A stretch of DNA of 36,968 nt from positions 1 to 36,968 of IMG/VR virus record IMGVR_UViG_3300022929_000080; one strand, written 5' to 3'. The stretch comes from a virus. Both the position numbers and the translations under genes were made by a program. Every line of letters begins with the position of its first letter. The first letter of the stretch is position 1. Positions 2,243 through 36,968 of the stretch are shown piece by piece. The notes under the pieces were generated by a model that saw nothing but the letters and a program-made list of their open reading frames with translations, was not told where the DNA came from and ran no database searches.

Positions 2243-2668
2243 TTACTTAGTATCCGTATTATTATTTAGAAAACCTTGTTTCAAAAGTTTTTGCAGTTCT
2301 GAAGTAGAACCTACAAAAAGAGCATTATTGGTAACATTATTTGTTTTTGGAGCATCTTCATTTACATCTTTTAGTTTTTTCTGCAAGTCAATTAATTTAT
2401 CGGTTGTATCAGCAACACTCTTAATTAATTGTCCTGCAACTTCATATGCTCTTGGACTATTACCTTCCTCAGCAACTTCCATAATACCGTTAATTGCTTC
2501 CTGTCCCTTTTCAATCAAAGAATACAAATTGGCACGAGTATATTCATAATCTTTTTCAACATCATCCTTTGTCTTCTCAGGAGGTTTTAGTTGAGATGGT
2601 TTATCCACCTTAACAATATCACTCTCAATATTAAGAGCTTCGTCTATGGAATCATAATTATCTGGCAT
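2243..2668 (-). CDS. 16: Terminase small subunit gp16
   Basis: This 141-aa protein matches the cyanophage gp16 type. It has an acidic N-terminus (MPDNYDSIDEALNIES), a helical core (YTRANLYSLIEKGQEAINGI) and the signature YEVAGQLIKSVADTTDKLID followed by a coiled-coil-like stretch. It then has NNALFVGSTSELQKLLKQG near the C-terminus. T4 gp16 is about 164 aa. The small subunit forms a ring that regulates the large terminase gp17 during headful DNA packaging. The gene lies directly after gp15 as in T4, with a 2-base gap. The large subunit gp17 does not follow in this window, which is a departure from the T4 order. Confidence 0.88.
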   Translation of the reverse strand: MPDNYDSIDEALNIESDIVKVDKPSQLKPPEKTKDDVEKDYEYTRANLYSLIEKGQEAINGIMEVAEEGNSPRAYEVAGQLIKSVADTTDKLIDLQKKLKDVNEDAPKTNNVTNNALFVGSTSELQKLLKQGFLNNNTDTK

Positions 2669-2670
2669 GG

Positions 2671-3477
2671 TTAAATATCAGTCTGTTGTGTAGGACTATA
2701 GTTCTTAGAGTCTGAAAAATACTCCCATGACTCACTGAAACCAAAGTCATCCTCAGGTCCTGCAGTAATTGGATCTGGTTCGACAGTATATCTAACTTCA
2801 CGTTTAGCAGTTTGTGTATCTATGTTAGAATACATATCAATTTGAACCTTCTTGATGAGTCCATCGGTGGATTCTGCAACAGGACCGAACAGATATGTTT
2901 TTGCCGTAAATCTTAATGTATAAATTAGTGCTCTTCTGGTAGAAAAATCTCCTTCATAATCATCTTGAAAATCTATATTATCTAATATAATGGGAATATC
3001 TCTCTTTTCACCAATAGATTCAACCAAATCAACAGTTAAGTTAAAAGATGGTTGGAAGAATGGCATAATTTGTTCAACAATTTGCAAAGCATCATCACTC
3101 AATTTTGCATAGATGCTTAATTCAAAACTAATGTTATATGGAACAGGCATGAATACTTTTTTTACCTTGTTCGCATCATTCTCATCAACAGCTCTGAATG
3201 TTTGAGTGACACTAGTTTTTCTAGTCGGATCGTATTGTATGCCAGTCATCTCAAATGACATTCTTGGCAGAGTAATGGCAATTGGTTTCTTTAAATCTGC
3301 CTGTTGTTGTATCTTTGCCAAAAACTTTTGAGTAGGACCGTATGACAATCCTACTTTAGTTTCATCGGCAACAGAACCATCTTTATTGAGGTGTCTAATA
3401 TAGATGTTGTTAAATAACGTACCAAAACTAATAATAGTTTTGCGTATAATTTCGTGATAAAAATAAGTTCCTAACAT
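2671..3477 (-). CDS. 15: Tail sheath stabilizer and completion protein gp15
   Basis: This 268-aa protein (T4 gp15 is about 272 aa) starts MLGTYFYHEIIRKTIISFGT, the characteristic gp15 N-terminus, and contains the conserved core with PRMSFEMTGIQYDPTRK and VPYNISFELSIYAK. Gp15 caps the head-proximal end of the contractile tail and stabilises the sheath before head joining. The ATG overlaps the gp14 stop (TAATG), and gp16 follows after 2 bases, exactly the T4 gene order 13-14-15-16. The acidic C-terminal tail (FGFSESWEYFSDSKNYS) is typical of the cyanophage version. Confidence 0.92.
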   Translation of the reverse strand: MLGTYFYHEIIRKTIISFGTLFNNIYIRHLNKDGSVADETKVGLSYGPTQKFLAKIQQQADLKKPIAITLPRMSFEMTGIQYDPTRKTSVTQTFRAVDENDANKVKKVFMPVPYNISFELSIYAKLSDDALQIVEQIMPFFQPSFNLTVDLVESIGEKRDIPIILDNIDFQDDYEGDFSTRRALIYTLRFTAKTYLFGPVAESTDGLIKKVQIDMYSNIDTQTAKREVRYTVEPDPITAGPEDDFGFSESWEYFSDSKNYSPTQQTDI

Positions 3478-10400: not shown

Positions 10401-13400
10401 GCTCCCTCTTTGTGATTTGAGTTAGCGAGTCTGAATCTAATGATTCTCTCTCCACCAAAATATCCAATTACAGTCTCTCCAACAGAGAAGACTCCACTAG
10501 AACCATAATTTTCTAAAGTGCTATCAGTTGCGATTTCAAGGAGTTTTGGTATGAAATCAACATTACTATGATTGTCTAAGAATTGATAATGAATTGAAAG
10601 TGGTTTTAGATTTCTTGCAAAGACAGAGACGTTCCTTGAACGAATATATCTTTCTACACCAGATGAAACGATAACATCTCTTGTTCTAGTACCAACAATT
10701 CCTCTAACAAAACCTCTACCACCAATATCAACAGTTACACTTCTACCAGGGATTCTAATAGTTCTAGTCCAAACATCAGATGCTGGTTCTAACTTAACAA
10801 ATCCAATATATTCGACAACATGGAAAGGATTAACATTTTCAACTCTTGTTGCAAGTGGTTGCTCAATCCAACCAACTGAATCATATTTCAGAGTGATTGA
10901 TTTTCCAGTCTTTTGAACATTAGAATCTAATAAAGCAAAATCAGTAGACAGATCTAACTCACTCTCAGCAATTTCAGTTGCTGGAAGAGGTCTCATCTGA
11001 ATTGAGTTTCTAAAGACACGAGGTTTTAATTCTCCACCAGAAACTTCAGCAGTTGTCAAGTCGGAGTCTAAAAGAGTTGTATCATTGAAATCATCAACAA
11101 AGAATCCACTCTTAAATCTATTATTTCCATCAGCATCTTCAATACGAAGTGACTCTGTTTTAACTTCTAATAGACTTAAGGTGGTTGTTCTCTCAAGATT
11201 TTCTATTCTATCCTCAAGTTTTCCAATGTCACGCATCGTATATCTTCTATTATCGAATAGAGAAATAGAAGCATCATCAGTATCATACAAATAAGCAGGC
11301 AGATTAATAGTTGCCAACTCCATCAAATCTGTATCATTGACGATGGGTTCCTTTGGATCTTTAGAAGGAACACCTTTGCTAACAATAAAGTTTCCAAACT
11401 TATCAAGGAATAATTTATCAATTCTTGGTAAATAGAATTCAAATCCAACTAGAGAACTTTCTCCTGGTTTTAAGTTGAACTTTGGTTCAGTACCAAAACT
11501 TCTTGAGTCAAAATCAAATGGTGAACTGGTGGTTACCGTGAACTCCGATACTCTAGGTCTGAAGTCAAGTGTATCGGACGCTCTAACATTATCGCTTCCA
11601 ATTACGGGAATATCATCTTTAAATCTATCAGCATCATAACTCAATACTGTGAATACATCACCGTCATCATTTGCAGGAACAGTATAATGATCGAATACAA
11701 TCAACAACCTTCTGGAAGGTTCTACATCATTCTTCCTGACAATTCTTGAATAATCATAGTATTCATCTCTCTGCCCTTTATCGAGAGTATAATTATTGGT
11801 AATGTTCTTATACTTACCTATGGTTATGGACTGAACAGTTGATGTAATGTTCGACTCGCCGAAAGTGACTTCTTCACCAACAGCAAATTTTTCTTTGTTC
11901 AGATATACAATTCCTAAATTATTAGTTGGAACCGATGGTGTTGTTCCTGTGTTTAATACAACTCTAGCAATAGCACCACTGGTAGAACCAACAATTTCTT
12001 CTCCAACAATGGCATCCGAATCTACATTTGAGATTGATGAAAATTCAATTCTATCTAAAACAGGATCTGAAGTGTCTGTTGATTCATAAACTGCAAGAAC
12101 TTTTGCTACATCAGGGAAATTGAGTGATATTTCACTATCCTGAACTCTCAATCCAAAGAAGTCATTAGAAGTTAATCCATCATCAACAGAAGTGCTCGTG
12201 GCAGAACCAGATTGTGCAAGTTTGGAAAGATTAACAACTTTAATTGCACTTCTTGTATATTCCTTTATCTTACTCTTGATTCCATTCTTCTTAAGAGTTG
12301 TATTAACAACAACACTAGACTCTGAAGCTTCTAAACCTCTGATGGTTACAGTATTTGTTGTGGTGTTTAAAGTGAATGCATCTGAAGTTACTGTTCCAAT
12401 TCCACCACCAGTATAGTGAACTGAATATCTTTCTTGATCGAAAGCCTCAAAGAATGCACTGGTAATTCCAGTGACTGCTGTTAAATCAAATGCAAGAACT
12501 CCATCACCGTTCGTAGTCTCTCCAGTAATTTGCTGAGATAATGCTAATGTGGAGTCTGTAAAATTAATAGAAGAAATATTTGGTTCTGGAAGTTTTGCAT
12601 AGAGATATCCTTGCCCATTATTTTTAAGTTCTGGAATTCCCAATTCTACTCTAAAAGTTCCAATACCAATACCACCATCAAAAACTCCAGCAACGGTGGA
12701 AAGTCCAGCAAGTGTTAATGAAGATAAATCTGATGAAACTGCTGATACTCTGTTAAAAGTTTCGTCTCCACTGCCTTGCTGATATCTAATAATATCTCCC
12801 GCTTTAATCCCAGAAAATTGCTTTCCAGGACTTGTCATTGTTGAACCACTGATATTAACATCAGTGATGCCATTAGGAAGTTTTCTCTTGCTTAAAACTG
12901 AATCAGCAGAGAATGCAGGAAATCCTCCTCCAGAACCAGCTGAAATAGACTTAATATCCTGTATTCCAAATACACTAGCAGCTGTTACAGTAAGGGGTGA
13001 ATCAATGCCATTGATAACAAGTTGCTCATTAACGGCAAATGTTCCTGATGTTTGGCGTAGAATAATTGAAGTTCCAGATCCTGCATCTTGAGCAAAACCA
13101 CTAGCACCACTACTCTTTCCTTTAACAAAAGAAGTTACTGGAACCTCTCCTGCAACAATTGTTCTATTAACAGTCAGTGTAGTTTGTGTTTGTATATCAT
13201 ACAAATATAAGTCCCATTGCGTCTCAGCGCTACTATATGCAGCGTCAGTTAAATTAAATGCATAGACACGAGCAGAACCAATTCCAGATGGAGTGCTTCC
13301 TTTAGGTCTATCGCTAAGAGTTACAACGACGTTTTCTGCAACTGCTCCAGAAACATTGTTGACTCTCAACAAATGTCCCATCTCGAAAGGTATATTTGAG

Positions 13401-32332: not shown

Positions 32333-32444
32333 CAGTGTGTTTTCGTCGCTTGATTTTATATAGAAATATTATGTGTTTGGGTAACACTTTGTAGGTTAGG
32401 GTAGTTAGGCGTTTTTATATACGGGGGGCGACACGCGACGGTAT

Positions 32445-32468
32445 AAAAAAGGGGGCACAAACGCCCCC
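32445..32468 (-). terminator. Rho-independent terminator after the nuclease-like gene
   Basis: On the minus strand a 6-bp GC stem (GGGGGC/GCCCCC, loop GTTTGT) is followed by TTTTTT. It lies 34 bases past the stop of the 216-aa gene (32502), an excellent intrinsic terminator. Confidence 0.88.
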
Positions 32469-32501
32469 ACTGCTGTATCACGAACGAACGGGCACTAACT
32501 G

Positions 32502-33152
32502 TTACACAGTGGCAGGCAGTTTAGTGAACCCAACCCAGGTGCGGTTTGGTTTGATTTCCCCGTACACACAAGCATCCTCACAGACGGACACTTTGGAGAC
32601 AGGGAATTTCAAACTGGTGCGGGAGTTGTTATCACTGTGAGCGCCAATCGACTCACCGACGACATCAGTGAAGACACAGACATTAAGCGCTTCAATGAAA
32701 CATCCAGTTTCTAGGATTTCATCCAGAGACTTATCCTTAACTGGCGTCCACAGAACCTGTACCAAATTCAACGATTTCTTCTCTTTAGGAGAATGCGTTG
32801 CGCCTTGGATATGTGTACCCTGTCCCGTCTTAATTTCCCACGCTTGGATGTCATCACCGACGATTTCGATAAAGTCACCAGCGCTGGAAAACTTGGGAAG
32901 GACGGATGCACCGAGTTCCTGCAACTTGAAGGGCAGATACAGTTCGAACAGTTTGCCGAACGATACACCTAAGTCAACAAAGAACTCCGATTTGGATTCA
33001 TTACTCCAGTACTGATTAACCAGTTGATTGAGAGTCAAATGAGAACCCAACTTTTTCCAGAAACGAATAATCCGATCCTGCAGCAGTTCTTCATTCATAT
33101 CACTGATAATCTCAGAGATGTTATCAGCGATGAGAGTTTTGATTTGAGTCAT
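32502..33152 (-). CDS. PD-(D/E)XK nuclease-like protein, 216 aa
   Basis: An N-terminal helical part (MTQIKTLIADNISEIISDMN) is followed by a helix with GKLFELYLPFKLQELGA (E70). The catalytic pattern then appears: SSAGDFIEI (D93), a 12-residue gap, and WEIKTGQGTHIQGATHS with E106-I-K108. This E...D...ExK arrangement is the restriction-endonuclease fold of type II enzymes and related nucleases. Such an enzyme would cut DNA with Mg2+; a role in host DNA breakdown, recombination or inter-phage exclusion is possible. No methyltransferase partner is visible in the window. The C-terminal part (FTDVVGESIGAHSDNNSRTS) is unassigned. It is followed by a strong terminator, so it is a discrete unit. Confidence 0.68.
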   Translation of the reverse strand: MTQIKTLIADNISEIISDMNEELLQDRIIRFWKKLGSHLTLNQLVNQYWSNESKSEFFVDLGVSFGKLFELYLPFKLQELGASVLPKFSSAGDFIEIVGDDIQAWEIKTGQGTHIQGATHSPKEKKSLNLVQVLWTPVKDKSLDEILETGCFIEALNVCVFTDVVGESIGAHSDNNSRTSLKFPVSKVSVCEDACVYGEIKPNRTWVGFTKLPATV

Positions 33153-33226
33153 TTTAGTGTGTCTTTGTTAGGGTAGACAAATGAGTGGGCGTCTTTAGGG
33201 CGCGTCCCGTTCCCTGTCCTATCCTA

Positions 33227-33472
33227 TCACAGTTCCTCGAAAAGCGCACCCATCTCAGCGGCGTCGATGGCGGGGTCATCCCAACGGACGCCATCGCCTG
33301 TCTCACCGATGAACCGACCAACCACACCGTCCGTCATGCATCGCACGAACTTGACCCAGGGGTTCTCACCCTCAGCGAACTCCACACATGCCTTAGCAGT
33401 GTTGTAGAGGAATTCGTCGTTTCCGATCCAGAGGGCGGCGTTCCAGGTTTCGTAGTTTGCCCAACCGTTCAT
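33227..33472 (-). CDS. Conserved cyanobacterial/cyanophage protein, 81 aa (DUF7249-like)
   Basis: I start at the ATG at 33472: MNGWANYETWNAALWIGNDE is the conserved beginning, while the 29 residues of an upstream extension look non-coding. The remainder (LYNTAKACVEFAEGENPWVK, TGDGVRWDDPAIDAAEMGAL) matches a small family I recall from cyanobacteria and their phages and associate with DUF7249. Trp-rich helices and the TxDGVRWxD motif are the signature. The function is unknown. A TATACT box lies at 33501-33506 upstream, without a good -35. Confidence 0.78.
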   Translation of the reverse strand: MNGWANYETWNAALWIGNDEFLYNTAKACVEFAEGENPWVKFVRCMTDGVVGRFIGETGDGVRWDDPAIDAAEMGALFEEL

Positions 33473-33578
33473 GGTCTGTCGTTTCGTTTGAACTGAAGTC
33501 AGTATAAGGGGCAGAGGGGGTGCTATTGGGGAATGAGTGGACAGCACGCTCATTGGCACACGGGCGGCCGAAAGTTAG

Positions 33579-33607
33579 TTATACAAACTCTCAAGGAGTT
33601 TGTATAA
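33579..33607. repeat. 12-bp inverted repeat spanning a stop codon
   Basis: TTATACAAACTC pairs perfectly with GAGTTTGTATAA across a 5-base loop. The hairpin includes the TGA stop (33591-33593) of the 302-aa gene. No T-run follows on the minus strand, so it is not a classic terminator; it may protect or delimit the mRNA 3' end. Confidence 0.75.
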
Positions 33608-34499
33608 ACTTTTGGTTGTTGAAGTTAGCATAACTGAAACGCTCACGATTCACCAGTTTCATTGTACCGAACTCATTGGAGTAAACATAACCTTCTCCGG
33701 AGATTTCATCCTGTCCGATGTATGCTTTAGGTCCGTTATTACGGCACATAAAGAGTGCATCATCCTTGATTGATTGCACCAGTTTCCAGAACGAAATTAG
33801 ACTCCAATCACAGTCGAATGCAGTATCTGAGATGGGGGTATTTTCACGGATGCACTTATTCAATGCTTGCTTAATTTTCTGTGCTTTCTTCTCATCGACA
33901 AACTTAACAGTCTGTGCAATTATCTTTGCAAACTTAATCGGTTCGGATACATCAAACCCACCAGCACAAACATCATACGAACCACTGAAGATATATGCCT
34001 TCGGTTTCACAAACTTGACGTAGGGAGTGTCAGTAATGATGAACTTCATAGGGTGCGCTACAGCATCACGCAGGTCAGATTCTGCGGTGTAAACTGTATG
34101 CGGAGCGACAATGATTTCCTCTTGAATTACTTCATCAAAGCGGTACGTGATTGTGTTGGGAGAATATTCCTGAGATCCACCGAAACCGATAAAATCCCCC
34201 TGGAAAATGCTGTCTGTATGAGGCAACCAATCAAGACAAGCGTGCAGAATGTTTGCAACTTCGCCCACGTGGTTTTGATCGATTTCTTCATGAGAATGAT
34301 TGATTTTGATTTTTACTTTGTTGAACACACTTTTAGTGCCAACGAAGAACTTACCGTTCGCAGGGTTTGTGCCCCAAACTATAGCGGGCGCACCGTCAAT
34401 TTTCAGGGAAAGATTACCCTCTGCCACGAACCAATCAAGGGCGCTCAAATCACCGGAAAGGATGGTGTCTTCGGGATGTTCGATGTGGGTGTTTTTCAT
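33591..34499 (-). CDS. Ligase-superfamily nucleotidyltransferase (DUF6267-like), 302 aa
   Basis: Motif I of covalent nucleotidyltransferases is present near the N-terminus: LSLKIDGAPAIVWG, with K33-x-D35-G36 as the candidate nucleotide-accepting lysine. FFVGTKSVFNK (residues 51-61) follows. A motif III-like SIFQGDFIGF comes next, then near the C-terminus EGYVYSNEFGTMKLVNRERF, in which EGYVY fits motif IV and MKLVN motif V. The pattern agrees with a phage family I know as DUF6267, which includes HPEDTIL near the start as here. No OB-fold domain is obvious, so it could be a minimal RNA/DNA ligase, an adenylyltransferase or an end-modifying enzyme. TATAAT is 6 bases before the ATG. Confidence 0.72.
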   Translation of the reverse strand: MKNTHIEHPEDTILSGDLSALDWFVAEGNLSLKIDGAPAIVWGTNPANGKFFVGTKSVFNKVKIKINHSHEEIDQNHVGEVANILHACLDWLPHTDSIFQGDFIGFGGSQEYSPNTITYRFDEVIQEEIIVAPHTVYTAESDLRDAVAHPMKFIITDTPYVKFVKPKAYIFSGSYDVCAGGFDVSEPIKFAKIIAQTVKFVDEKKAQKIKQALNKCIRENTPISDTAFDCDWSLISFWKLVQSIKDDALFMCRNNGPKAYIGQDEISGEGYVYSNEFGTMKLVNRERFSYANFNNQKFIQTP

Positions 34500-34505
34500 A
34501 TCCGG

Positions 34506-34537
34506 ATTATAGGGACAAAAAAGCGCCCTGTGGAGGG
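34506..34537 (-). promoter_or_regulatory. Candidate leaderless promoter for the ligase-like gene, inside a terminator
   Basis: On the minus strand TATAAT is followed by 6 bases and the ATG (34499). A -35-like TCCACA (4/6) lies 17 bases upstream, in the loop and stem of the preceding terminator. Transcription would begin at or beside the A of the start codon, giving a leaderless message. The -35 is weak, so this is tentative. Confidence 0.42.
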
Positions 34538-34542
34538 CGCTT
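34515..34542 (-). terminator. Rho-independent terminator after the 115-aa gene
   Basis: A perfect 9-bp stem (AAGCGCCCT/AGGGCGCTT, 4-base loop) is followed on the minus strand by TTTTTTGT. It is 12 bases after the stop of the gene at 34554-34901. Confidence 0.9.
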
Positions 34543-34553
34543 GTGACGGTTCC

Positions 34554-34901
34554 TCAGGCGAACACGTATCCAGACTGGAATGGCACGTTTTGAAACTTGC
34601 TCTCACCGTTGATAGCGCCCACGAACTTGCGAACGTACCAGGTCCAGTCCTTTTGAAAAACGCCCTCGCCTGCAATGCAGAATGCATCGCACAGGGCATT
34701 CAGACGGGATTTCGTGGTGTTGGACTGCCAGCCCCCATCATAGATCGTCATGTCGTTGTCGGTGACGGTGGCGATCAGGTTCCCGTGAAGGTAGACAGAA
34801 GACGTTCCCGTTTCGGCGTCGAATTGAACAGAGGTGTTAGCGTTTCTCCAGTTGCGGTTGCTCTGGACTGCCTGGCACATCTGGGATTCGATTTTGCGCA
34901 T
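34554..34901 (-). CDS. Conserved small protein of cyanobacteria/cyanophages, 115 aa
   Basis: The start at 34901 (MRKIESQMCQAVQSNRNWRN) is chosen over an upstream extension because a promoter lies just before it. The rest reads NTSVQFDAETGTSSVYLHGN, LIATVTDNDMTIYDGGWQSN and TTKSRLNALCDAFCIAGEGV. The motif set LHGNxIA, GWxSxTTxSRLNAL and QKDWTWYV is familiar from short proteins in Prochlorococcus, Synechococcus and their phages. No function is known. It is a single-gene unit, with a sigma70-like promoter in front and a strong terminator behind, typical of an early gene. Confidence 0.8.
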   Translation of the reverse strand: MRKIESQMCQAVQSNRNWRNANTSVQFDAETGTSSVYLHGNLIATVTDNDMTIYDGGWQSNTTKSRLNALCDAFCIAGEGVFQKDWTWYVRKFVGAINGESKFQNVPFQSGYVFA

Positions 34902-34927
34902 TTGAGTCGTTTGTTTGACTTGATAGA

Positions 34928-34956
34928 ACAATAGGCGATTCTGGGAGCAGTGCCAA
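34928..34956 (-). promoter_or_regulatory. Sigma70-like promoter for the 115-aa gene
   Basis: On the minus strand TTGGCA (5/6) is spaced 17 bases from TATTGT (4/6). The predicted start is near 34921, about 20 bases before the ATG at 34901. Confidence 0.6.
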
Positions 34957-34980
34957 AAAATTGTGACACTACGCCAACTG

Positions 34981-35166
34981 TCACTCTCCGAAGAATGAGA
35001 AGTGGGCATCAACCACGAAATCGATCACGTCATCCGTGGCATTCACGCCGAACTGCTCACAGAACCAGTCCACTGCCATATCAGCGGGTAGCATCGTGTC
35101 GAATAGGAAATCCTGCAGGTCCTGCAGGGTTTGGGGATTGGAGAGAATGGTTTTTGTTTTGTTCAT
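34981..35166 (-). CDS. Small acidic protein, 61 aa, unknown
   Basis: The reading frame starting at ATG 35166 gives MNKTKTILSNPQTLQDLQDF, then LFDTMLPADMAVDWFCEQFG, ending VVDAHFSFFGE. It is a helical acidic protein with no membrane segment. An upstream in-frame extension to 35217 has no support. TATAAT sits exactly 6 bases before this ATG, the same arrangement as before the ligase-like gene. I do not recognise the family. Confidence 0.68.
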   Translation of the reverse strand: MNKTKTILSNPQTLQDLQDFLFDTMLPADMAVDWFCEQFGVNATDDVIDFVVDAHFSFFGE

Positions 35167-35172
35167 GCCACC

Positions 35173-35178
35173 ATTATA
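35173..35178 (-). promoter_or_regulatory. TATAAT box 6 bases before an ATG
   Basis: The minus strand reads TATAAT-GGTGGC-ATG. This is a perfect -10 box, but no convincing -35 is found 17 bases upstream (ACCAAA). If active, the transcript would be leaderless. Confidence 0.4.
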
Positions 35179-35242
35179 AGCACGGGGTTGGGCGCTTTGG
35201 TTGCCGCATTGTGCCACCTTGCGAATTGGTTGAGCGGCCGAC

Positions 35243-35374
35243 TTAGTTTGTGTTAGTTAGTGCTTCAATTTGCTGGTTTCGTTTTTCAATGACTTCCAAC
35301 ATGTTTGAGTCAAGTATACTGAGCATCAGATTTGCACCCAGCATAATGAACATAACCGTGAACGCAATTCGCAT
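35243..35374 (-). CDS. Small single-pass membrane protein, 43 aa
   Basis: The frame reads MRIAFTVMFIMLGANLMLSI, then LDSNMLEVIEKRNQQIEALT and NTN-stop. Residues 3-21 form one hydrophobic segment and the rest is a short charged helix, so it is a small membrane peptide with a cytoplasmic or periplasmic coiled tail. A strong GGAGG lies 9 bases upstream, and its ATG overlaps the upstream stop (TAATG). The size and form would fit a holin-like, spanin-like or membrane-modulating peptide, but nothing specific supports any of these. Confidence 0.72.
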   Translation of the reverse strand: MRIAFTVMFIMLGANLMLSILDSNMLEVIEKRNQQIEALTNTN

Positions 35375-35556
35375 TAGTTTTCCTCCAAAAGTTCGGGATA
35401 ATACTCTTTAACTTCTTCCATCAATTCATCATCGGTATACTTATCATAACTCTGGTCCATGAAATCATAAAGAACTGCCCACATAGTTTTGAAGTCCATT
35501 CCATCAATCACGTTGTCGATGAGTTGATCTTGAAGTTCCTGACGGTTCATGTTCAT
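35374..35556 (-). CDS. Small acidic conserved protein, 60 aa
   Basis: It reads MNMNRQELQDQLIDNVIDGM, DFKTMWAVLYDFMDQSYDKY, TDDELMEEVKEYYPELLEEN. The family pattern (Rx-ELxDQLxDNxIDGMDxK, then YxDEEL...YxPELLEE) is familiar from cyanophage small ORFs. The ATG at 35556 overlaps the preceding stop as ATGA; the second ATG at 35550 is an alternative start. It is likely a small helical protein, function unknown. It is translationally linked on both sides. Confidence 0.8.
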   Translation of the reverse strand: MNMNRQELQDQLIDNVIDGMDFKTMWAVLYDFMDQSYDKYTDDELMEEVKEYYPELLEEN

Positions 35557-35723
35557 TTGGTGGGGAAGTTTTTGCAGACGGCATCACACAAGGTCTCAAT
35601 GAGTTCGTCTCTCAATTCATCATAATCTTCTGTATGTGGAAATACCTCACTGAACTTTGATTCGATGATACAATCAATGTCCTCCATGAGTTGTTCGCGT
35701 TGTTTGAGAATTTCGAGGTTCAT
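35553..35723 (-). CDS. Small conserved protein, 56 aa
   Basis: The frame reads MNLEILKQREQLMEDIDCII, ESKFSEVFPHTEDYDELRDE, LIETLCDAVCKNFPTK-stop. It is a helical protein with three Cys residues. It starts 2 bases after the stop of the 44-aa gene and its stop overlaps the next ATG, so it belongs to the same coupled cassette. Similar sequences occur in cyanophages as I recall, without function. Confidence 0.78.
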   Translation of the reverse strand: MNLEILKQREQLMEDIDCIIESKFSEVFPHTEDYDELRDELIETLCDAVCKNFPTK

Positions 35724-35725
35724 GT

Positions 35726-35860
35726 TCAATAATCGGTGTTGCCGTTGATGTAATTTTCTACGTCAAACTTTTCTTCTTTCTCCCATTCTTCCTTGAAATC
35801 TATCACGTCGAAAATCTCACCTTGGGAGTCATTGATTTCGCTCCAGAGTTCATCGAACAT
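35726..35860 (-). CDS. Small acidic protein, 44 aa
   Basis: Starting at ATG 35860 the product is MFDELWSEINDSQGEIFDVI, then DFKEEWEKEEKFDVENYING, NTDY. An upstream extension to 35926 would run through a hairpin and is rejected. The protein is strongly acidic and helical. A GGAG lies about 16 bases upstream, rather far. It is the first gene of the small-gene cassette 35860-35243, following a regulatory patch with dyads. Confidence 0.68.
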   Translation of the reverse strand: MFDELWSEINDSQGEIFDVIDFKEEWEKEEKFDVENYINGNTDY

Positions 35861-35889
35861 TTGAAATTTTTGATTACTCCGTAACAATA

Positions 35890-35917
35890 ACCCCTCACGG
35901 ACGAAACCGCAAGGGGT
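35890..35917 (-). terminator. Hairpin: terminator or leader attenuator
   Basis: A 6-bp stem (ACCCCT/AGGGGT), a 2-base mismatch, then 3 more pairs closing an ACGAAA-type loop. On the minus strand it is followed by TATTGTT, a moderate T-tract. It lies between the dyad operator patch and the first cassette gene, so it could end an upstream transcript or attenuate the downstream one. Confidence 0.5.
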
Positions 35918-35942
35918 AGTGGACACTCTGCCAATTGTCCTA

Positions 35943-35993
35943 CTGATACGAATTCGTATTATCTAATATTGTCTGATACGAATTCATATTATA
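35943..35993. promoter_or_regulatory. Two ATACGAATTC dyads 30 bp apart plus TATAAT
   Basis: CTGATACGAATTC occurs at 35943 and again at 35973. The first copy is part of a perfect 14-bp palindrome (ATACGAATTCGTAT, 35946-35959), and the second is imperfect (ATACGAATTCATAT). A minus-strand TATAAT at 35988-35993 sits at the upstream edge. Spacing of 30 bp puts both dyads on the same face of the helix. This looks like a repressor-controlled promoter for the cassette below 35860. Confidence 0.5.
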
Positions 35994-36014
35994 TCCAATT
36001 CACGTACTGGCACA

Positions 36015-36200
36015 CTACCAGTCGATATCGTATTCCTCGATGTTAATATTAATATCCTCGTCGGAATTTAAATTTAGTACTTCTCGCCAATCGAGAGTTT
36101 CTAAATCTAAATCCTCGTAACACATGACATCTAGTGTGACGCGCATTAGGCGTTTTGTGTATAACGCGGGCATGTGAATCTCGTGCGACGTGTACTGCAT
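36015..36200 (-). CDS. Small Asp/Glu-rich protein, 61 aa, tentative
   Basis: I start this at ATG 36200, 4 bases after the stop of the upstream small ORF: MQYTSHEIHMPALYTKRLMR, VTLDVMCYEDLDLETLDWRE, VLNLNSDEDININIEEYDID, W. The C-terminal half is strongly acidic and ends in DxDW. Upstream in-frame starts to 36257 would overlap the neighbour by about 50 bases. There is no good Shine-Dalgarno. I do not recognise a family, but the acidic C-terminus is typical of small phage proteins. Confidence 0.5.
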   Translation of the reverse strand: MQYTSHEIHMPALYTKRLMRVTLDVMCYEDLDLETLDWREVLNLNSDEDININIEEYDIDW

Positions 36201-36204
36201 TATA

Positions 36205-36384
36205 TCATGCATAATGTCTATACGCAAGCGCATCATAGTCTTGCGTATCTCGTGCATAATCCTCGTCTATTGTATACTGATCTAGAGGCATATATGATTG
36301 CATATACACGTCATACATCTCGACGAGATCATTGTGATAATAATAATTGTTATGTGTATAGTCGAGATCGTGTTCGTAATACAT
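36205..36384 (-). CDS. Small Tyr/His/Asp-rich protein, 59 aa, tentative
   Basis: Starting at ATG 36384 the product is MYYEHDLDYTHNNYYYHNDL, VEMYDVYMQSYMPLDQYTID, EDYARDTQDYDALAYRHYA. It has a striking content of Tyr, Asp and His and no hydrophobic core. An in-frame TTG at 36438 would extend it through the promoter dyads and is rejected. The upstream region has dyads and a -10/-35 pair. No family known to me. Confidence 0.48.
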   Translation of the reverse strand: MYYEHDLDYTHNNYYYHNDLVEMYDVYMQSYMPLDQYTIDEDYARDTQDYDALAYRHYA

Positions 36385-36468
36385 AATTCTCGTCGAGATG
36401 TATGATGTTATTATACTGTGATCTCGACGAGAATGCAAGCCCTAATGCCCGCCAGATCTAGTCGAGAT
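36317..36468. repeat. Four to five TCTCG-N-CGAGA dyads at about 35-bp intervals
   Basis: Near-palindromic 13-mers: ATCTCGACGAGAT (36317-36329), TTCTCGTCGAGAT (36387-36399), ATCTCGACGAGAA (36421-36433) and ATCTAGTCGAGAT (36456-36468). A half-site TCGAGAT is at 36362-36368. Full-site centres are 70, 34 and 35 bp apart. One site sits in the spacer of a promoter-like pair and another just past its predicted start. Further ATCTCG half-sites are at about 36178 and 36247. Confidence 0.62.
36410..36438 (-). promoter_or_regulatory. Promoter-like TTGCAT-N17-TATAAT with dyad in spacer
   Basis: On the minus strand TTGCAT (3/6 to the -35 consensus) is 17 bases from a perfect TATAAT. The spacer contains most of the dyad ATCTCGACGAGAA. 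A predicted start near 36403 lies just before the dyad at 36387-36399. This is a plausible repressible promoter for the two small ORFs below. Confidence 0.5.
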
Positions 36469-36478
36469 TCATAACCAT

Positions 36479-36486
36479 TATTTATA
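36479..36486 (-). promoter_or_regulatory. T4-type late promoter TATAAATA
   Basis: The minus strand reads TATAAATA about 95 bases upstream of the 59-aa ORF and upstream of the dyad cluster. It would add late transcription to the sigma70-like promoter at 36410-36438. Confidence 0.5.
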
Positions 36487-36537
36487 ATACCTTTGTATTA
36501 TTTGTGTCGATTCTGTGACTTTTCGCCGTCCCGGTGG

Positions 36538-36566
36538 TTGACAGAGAGCGCTTCTTATGATACGCT
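36538..36566 (+). promoter_or_regulatory. Possible plus-strand sigma70 promoter
   Basis: TTGACA (6/6) is 17 bases from TACGCT (3/6). Downstream lie AGGGAGG and an ATG at 36598, but only a 7-codon frame follows. If used it would make a short non-coding or leader RNA opposite to all genes here. Confidence 0.3.
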
Positions 36567-36781
36567 CGCTAAACTTGCATCAGGGAGGCACCTTTTCATG
36601 AGGTATAATAGAGTCTTATAAGGATAAGATGAGGTGCTTTATGAGAGTCTTAATTCATATCATAATCACCCTTTAATACGAATAATTATCATCACAACAA
36701 AAAACAAAAGTATATTTATTTAACCTTTTTTATTTAATTTTTAACATATTTAAGTAACAACGGATACAGAAACCTCCCCCC

Positions 36782-36968
36782 TTACCTACTCTTGACATAC
36801 TCCAATTCCTTCCAGTTCTCTGGATAACAACACACCAAACATCTTTCATTCCTGTGCAGAGTACAATCCTTATAGGACTCATCACTCTTCTCTCTTACCA
36901 TAATCTCTATAGTAAGATACCTCTTCTCCGTATCAATCCAATATATCCATCCTTCCATTCCTTTCCAC
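36782..36968 (-). CDS. Conserved small protein, C-terminal part at window edge
   Basis: An open frame enters from the right edge and ends at TAA (36782-36784), giving 61 residues: WKGMEGWIYWIDTEKRYLTI, EIMVREKSDESYKDCTLHRN, ERCLVCCYPENWKELEYVKS, R. A beta-rich start (WxxDTExxYLTIE) is followed by a Cys cluster (CLVCCYP) and a W-x-ELxYV motif, a pattern I associate with small cyanobacterial and cyanophage proteins. An internal ATG at 36958 could be the true start (58 aa), since AAAGGA precedes it directly, but the window ends too soon to decide. Function unknown. Confidence 0.6.
   Translation of the reverse strand, partial: WKGMEGWIYWIDTEKRYLTIEIMVREKSDESYKDCTLHRNERCLVCCYPENWKELEYVKSR

Follow-up and report, generated by a model that had tools for sequence, protein, structure and literature searches.

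The nuclease encoded in the accessory region of this viral DNA (the whole stretch analysed, 36,968 nucleotides long, is called the window below) is most probably a restriction endonuclease (R) that belongs to a type II restriction–modification (R-M) system encoded by T4-like cyanophages (Kyanoviridae and kin); in this phage population R and its methyltransferase (M) have become unlinked. The nuclease family, its catalytic residues, its fold class, the recurrent pairing of R with M and the occurrence of M within this phage population were computed. The window itself comes from a T4-like cyanophage and has a baseplate gp25 gene, DUF6267 and Kyano_Gp96; its best DNA match is Synechococcus phage S-SKS1 at 73% identity. 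The accessory stretch around the nuclease (32500–35100) has a G+C content of 43–52% vs 37.7% for the window. A DUF7249 (PF23907) gene at 33227–33559 on the minus strand lies 74 bp upstream of the nuclease and occupies the same place in the near-identical contigs L002–L004.

Table 1. Features of the nuclease locus and its surroundings, in window coordinates
Feature	Position	Strand	Basis or remark
Type II restriction endonuclease-like CDS (R), 216 aa	32502..33152	-	Open reading frame, alignment, model, fold matches
E70 codon, helix glutamate, presumed EcoRV E45 counterpart by position	32943..32945	-	Invariant; model helix 51-79
Codons D93 to K108, GD-X12-E-I-K core, putative PD-(D/E)XK site	32829..32876	-	D93/E106/K108 invariant in 23-homologue alignment
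N176-T179 codons, NSRT motif near C-terminus	32616..32627	-	Invariant in alignment
Terminator-like hairpin and T-run, 34 bases past the nuclease stop	32441..32468	-	Consensus match; number of matches near chance
DUF6267 (PF19782, phrog_455) ligase-like protein, unnamed	33591-34499	-	438 bp upstream of the nuclease
Dovetail overlap with IMGVR_UViG_3300017986_000145	34164..36968		2,805 bp, 99.68%, 9 mismatches, no gap

The sequence-only reading had proposed a full catalytic set of E70, D93, E106 and K108 for this protein, and both the open reading frame and the motif are confirmed: all four residues are invariant across 23 diverse homologues with identity down to 24%, giving the conserved E…D…(D/E)-x-K arrangement of the PD-(D/E)XK group. 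Homologues lacking D93, E106 or K108, which that reading had named as one of two observations that would count against it, were sought, and the three residues are present throughout the 23-sequence alignment; they are also kept in a nine-sequence alignment that includes the Syn9 gp61 group. In the same 23 sequences S90, G92, G117, T119, H120, K123, E124 and the NSRT residues are invariant as well. The dN/dS of 0.02–0.05 for the nuclease in the window clade indicates strong purifying selection, and because of the invariant residues and this low ratio the motif is taken to be real and under selection. By its sequence, the protein is a PD-(D/E)XK enzyme with a complete catalytic set, and cleavage is predicted. 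The nuclease is a single-domain protein with no ATPase, helicase or specificity subunit within it, as is found for type II endonucleases; a UvsW-like helicase gene lies near the nuclease in relatives, and occurs too in cyanophages without the nuclease. No relative of the nuclease was found by sequence in Pfam, PHROGs, NCBIfam, PADLOC or the PDB.

An AlphaFold2 model built from the 23-homologue alignment (pLDDT 87.7, pTM 0.86) contains a helix at residues 51–79 that holds E70, and strands at 84–89, 92–98 (with D93) and 101–110 (with E106 and K108). The model and its fold matches thus display the alpha/beta core of PD-(D/E)XK enzymes, in which a beta hairpin bears the D and the E-x-K. By position, E70, D93, E106 and K108 parallel E45, D74, D90 and K92, which we take to be their counterparts in EcoRV. 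The best Foldseek matches of the model are EcoRV chains (E 5e-4). With VIA-align the top match is NaeI (Z 9.3, 3.6 Å over 149), followed by SfiI (7.5), DpnI (7.1), EcoRV (6.7), BglI (6.4), NlaIV (6.2), and SwaI and HincII (both 6.0); scores below 8 lie in a range where common arrangements score too and only NaeI exceeds 8, and what counts is the agreement among these top rows, every one of which is a type II or type IIM restriction enzyme. The placement of the residues along the modelled topology and the fold matches agree with a clustered PD-(D/E)XK catalytic site.

The same fold is used by free-standing homing endonucleases and Holliday-junction-type nucleases, and the weak resemblance of the model to I-Ssp6803I and Hjc in VIA-align (Z about 5) would fit such an enzyme, as would the different places that R and M occupy in different lineages. 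We consider this very improbable: the whole-length matches are restriction enzymes, neither an intron nor an interrupted target gene was observed, and a methyltransferase recurs as the partner of the nuclease.

This partner emerged from clustering of the open reading frames around the nuclease relatives, in many of which a gene of roughly 285 aa adjoins the nuclease. Its product matches the PF01555 DNA methyltransferase family (E 1e-40 to 1e-46) and carries a TSPPY motif, which is typical of N4-cytosine enzymes; its relatives in the PDB include an N4-cytosine methyltransferase and CcrM. As judged from these matches, M is a beta-class DNA methyltransferase, and TSPPY suggests N4-cytosine methylation. 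Eighty M loci were fetched from IMG/VR, and 45 of them have a gene of the nuclease family, which in 42 of the 45 lies directly upstream on the same strand (40 by the distance filter of the script, plus L204 and L207, where R overlaps M, added by eye). Overlaps of 1–17 nt between R and M were found in nine pairs examined. A methyltransferase encoded together with the endonuclease, as in type II R-M systems, is therefore seen at 42 of the 80 M loci, and for the window phage through an overlapping contig. The M proteins of nuclease subfamilies A and B (defined below) are about 65% or more identical, vs about 25% for the nucleases, a contrast that, on these alignments, is the usual pattern of a fast-evolving R and a slow-evolving M. 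The 104-kb contig L153 has an intact nuclease, but its M frame (2590–3400) is interrupted directly behind TSPPY, where about 49 bases are missing, perhaps through an error of assembly.

The pairing also bears on whether the nuclease might instead be a DpnI-like, modification-dependent enzyme that cuts methyl-marked DNA of the host or of competitors. DpnI is among the fold matches, a resemblance of fold, and dependence on modification would account for the tolerated loss or unlinking of M. Against this, close association with a single conserved methyltransferase is what marks a protect-and-cut system, and it would be suicidal for the enzyme to attack the marked genome that encodes it; we give the DpnI-like alternative very little weight.

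The sequence-only reading had further described the nuclease as an orphan with no methylase nearby. This holds for the window, in which no methylase of PF01555, PF02086, PF00145, PF02384 or PF05869 was found, and no M lies beside the nuclease in its close relatives L002–L008. It does not hold for the phage population, since a contig whose overlap with the window is 99.7% identical encodes an M of the partner family at a distance of 13.2 kb from the nuclease. Among the IMG/VR contigs a single one contains a 30-mer taken from the window's final bases, namely 3300017986_000145 (the contig of L178), which extends the window by the dovetail overlap listed in Table 1. Its M gene at contig positions 12213–13031 (minus strand) projects to about 46376–47194 (minus strand) in window coordinates, 9.4 kb beyond base 36968 and upstream of the nuclease start on the same strand. 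The linkage of R to M in the window phage is thus drawn across a 2.8-kb overlap between contigs, the window's own assembly being without M. The M contigs L177/L178/L182 and L180/L181/L183 form two sublineages, as do the nucleases of the window clade, and the metagenomes 3300018428 and 3300031565 each contain both the R and the M genes.

A separated arrangement is also seen in subfamily B. Contig 3300005512_000139 (G017) carries a subfamily-B nuclease and M 6.1 kb apart on one strand, and L162 (1989–6110) and L026 (1–2368) overlap at 94%, which suggests that in a further lineage of subfamily B several kb separate M from R. Absence of an adjacent M requires at least three changes on the nuclease tree, and because both the G017 and the window cases have separated R and M, unlinking happened more than once. 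Recurrent loss of M was entertained as an account of these absences; it was dropped for the window clade on the M-bearing overlapping contig, and G017 and the L162/L026 overlap weaken it for subfamily B.

By comparison, the complete 168-kb genome of Synechococcus phage DSL-LC02 contains the nuclease but nothing that matches the five methylase families or an M profile; it alone has an endonuclease with no methyltransferase found in the genome, and by these six profiles R can persist without M. This genome is the main ground for regarding R as a solitary enzyme without a cognate M, a host shredder or an anti-competitor device, with the phage DNA spared by absence of the site, by another modification or by late cutting. 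The purifying selection on R that persists where no M adjoins, and the threefold or more frequent origin of the missing adjacent M, would fit such an enzyme too. We nevertheless regard it as unlikely, since the window clade has M in the overlapping contig and the other contigs with R alone, to go by G017 and L162/L026, probably have M elsewhere.

About 35 related nuclease loci came out of two IMG/VR scans; they include subfamily A, to which the window belongs (WEIKTG), and subfamily B, that of DSL-LC02 (WEIKGTSG); A and B are about 25% identical. DSL-LC02 is the one isolate in the phage collection with the nuclease (WJZ48236.1, annotated as hypothetical). A phrog_2558 ParB/GmrSD_N-like protein follows the nuclease directly in DSL-LC02 (L001:6791–7783) and in L009:4025–4483, and lies between R and M in L020:6361–7461; it is a possible third component. 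A narrow search with two peptide patterns found no bacterial relative of the nuclease among 84,980 genomes, and the nuclease profile had no match beside bacterial relatives of M; those that were read had other enzymes or none alongside, for example a Bpu10I-family enzyme in L050.

In the isolates Syn9 (gp61–gp62), P-TIM40 (59–60), S-H35 and S-MbCM6 (045–046), the same M is preceded by a hypothetical protein of 202–222 aa, which belongs to phrog_11812 (group C). Group C and the nuclease have the D/E-x-K, G..HS, NNN..L and YG motifs in common. Direct comparison of the nuclease and group C profiles is weak (Prob 8.5), and through the bridging subfamily D (L187–L192, L213, L229) the group C profile matches with Prob 93.6 and E 2e-7. 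The structural model of group C (subfamily C) is poor (pLDDT 46) and was left unused. On the profile matches, group C probably belongs to the same family as the nuclease. Two small proteins, SWZG_00206 of S-SKS1 (L146:30871–32302) and S-MbCM6_047 (L132:3340–3759), have a nuclease-like D..E/Q-x-K and lie beside or overlap methyltransferases; they are unmatched by the nuclease family profile and may be members of further hidden R-M pairs.

The ligase-like gene upstream of the nuclease, which had been suggested to form a cut-and-seal pair with it, is present as described; such a pair might work in mobility, in repair or in packaging. It encodes a DUF6267 protein in which the KxDG, QGDFIG, EGYV and K-L-V motifs are conserved, and which is nucleotidyltransferase/ligase-like. 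These motifs and the closeness of the two genes in the window are what a cut-and-seal pair has in its favour. The search for co-occurrence beyond background found no specific link: DUF6267 occurs in 439 phage records, nearly all of them cyanophages, vs 1 for the nuclease; in the only isolate with both, DSL-LC02, 83 kb separate the nuclease from a weak DUF6267 homologue; and DUF6267 keeps its usual place in cyanophages without the nuclease, such as S-SKS1 and S-SM2. DUF6267 is a cyanophage backbone gene. A cut-and-seal pair is thus the least credible of the alternatives considered here, hardly deserving weight, and the two genes most likely lie close together by chance within the accessory region.

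For the nuclease as R of an R-M system, we infer a common specificity of R and M, cleavage activity, dimerisation, timing and a biological target as follows. M would place its mark on a short site in the phage DNA. R, which probably has an EcoRV/NaeI-like fold and works as a Mg2+-dependent homodimer, would cut the site of M where it is unmethylated, either in the host chromosome, with release of nucleotides and host shut-off, or in co-infecting phages, or in both. Host genome degradation and competitor exclusion are our best functional guesses for the nuclease. In a comparison of R+M-, R+M+ and R-less cyanophages that covered 4- and 6-mers and interrupted palindromes, no word was missing specifically from R-only genomes, which also speaks against a solitary R. 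Many palindromes are avoided by cyanophages with or without the nuclease system, and because of this general avoidance no recognition site could be derived from it. GCATGC, GACGTC and GTCGAC do not occur in any of the cyanophage stretches compared (L045–L048, that is DSL-LC02; the window; L138–L140; and L146–L148), including those of S-SKS1 and S-SM2, both of which are without the nuclease; for GCATGC, 0 were found vs about 40 expected in one set.

A wider proposal, which we put forward tentatively and rate as possible though somewhat doubtful, is that T4-like cyanophages carry a large unrecognised restriction-enzyme family of at least four subfamilies (A to D) with one conserved M, from which R has been repeatedly separated and which is missing in DSL-LC02. 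The logic of addiction would be relaxed because a lytic phage needs no surviving host, and R would be a weapon turned on host genomes and on competing phages.

With the R-M assignment, a gene family labelled "hypothetical" in abundant marine viruses, to which phrog_11812 of the laboratory model Syn9 probably belongs, becomes a family of restriction enzymes that can be tested, and Syn9 gp61/gp62 is an isolate pair suited to testing the putative R-M system. If the enzymes are active, cyanophages bear R-M weapons of their own, which bears on host genome degradation and the exclusion of rivals, and perhaps on the avoidance of many palindromes by cyanophage genomes. Unlinked R and M, and an R without M as in DSL-LC02, are uncommon arrangements among restriction systems. 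Full-text searches of one open-access library found no paper on the nuclease family, and one may exist elsewhere. Virus-encoded R-M systems are of a known kind; as far as our searches reach, the nuclease family, its spread over cyanophages as "hypothetical" proteins and the unlinked arrangement are new.

Comparison with known enzymes places the nuclease with the type II group of EcoRV, NaeI, SfiI and DpnI, with which it has the catalytic set, the topology and the whole-length fold in common, whereas it has no detectable sequence similarity to solved structures or Pfam and comes from a lytic cyanophage. The phrog_11812 proteins (Syn9 gp61, S-MbCM6_045 and P-TIM40_59) resemble the nuclease family in lying directly upstream of an orthologous PF01555 M; they differ in being annotated as unknown, their kinship being likely by sequence profiles rather than by structure. 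The S-SM2 gene annotated as "restriction enzyme type II R/M system 1" (SSM2_066) is an R-M-type gene in the same cyanophage accessory region, but it has no significant similarity to the nuclease family. Among virus-encoded systems, the GATC R-M of marseillevirus leaves host DNA uncut, and exclusion of competing viruses has been proposed for it (PMC7253447). It is virus-encoded, as is the system described here; it belongs to a eukaryotic virus, has adjacent genes and was tested experimentally, whereas the cyanophage system is known by computation. The R-M systems of chloroviruses (CviAII, CviJI and others) are likewise virus-encoded, and their packaged R has been credited with initiating the breakdown of host DNA within minutes (PMC7019647). 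Our searches found no sequence relation between them and the cyanophage system, whose host is cyanobacterial, and whereas the R and M genes of chloroviruses are, according to that review, always adjacent (PMC7019647), those of the cyanophages can stand 6–13 kb apart.
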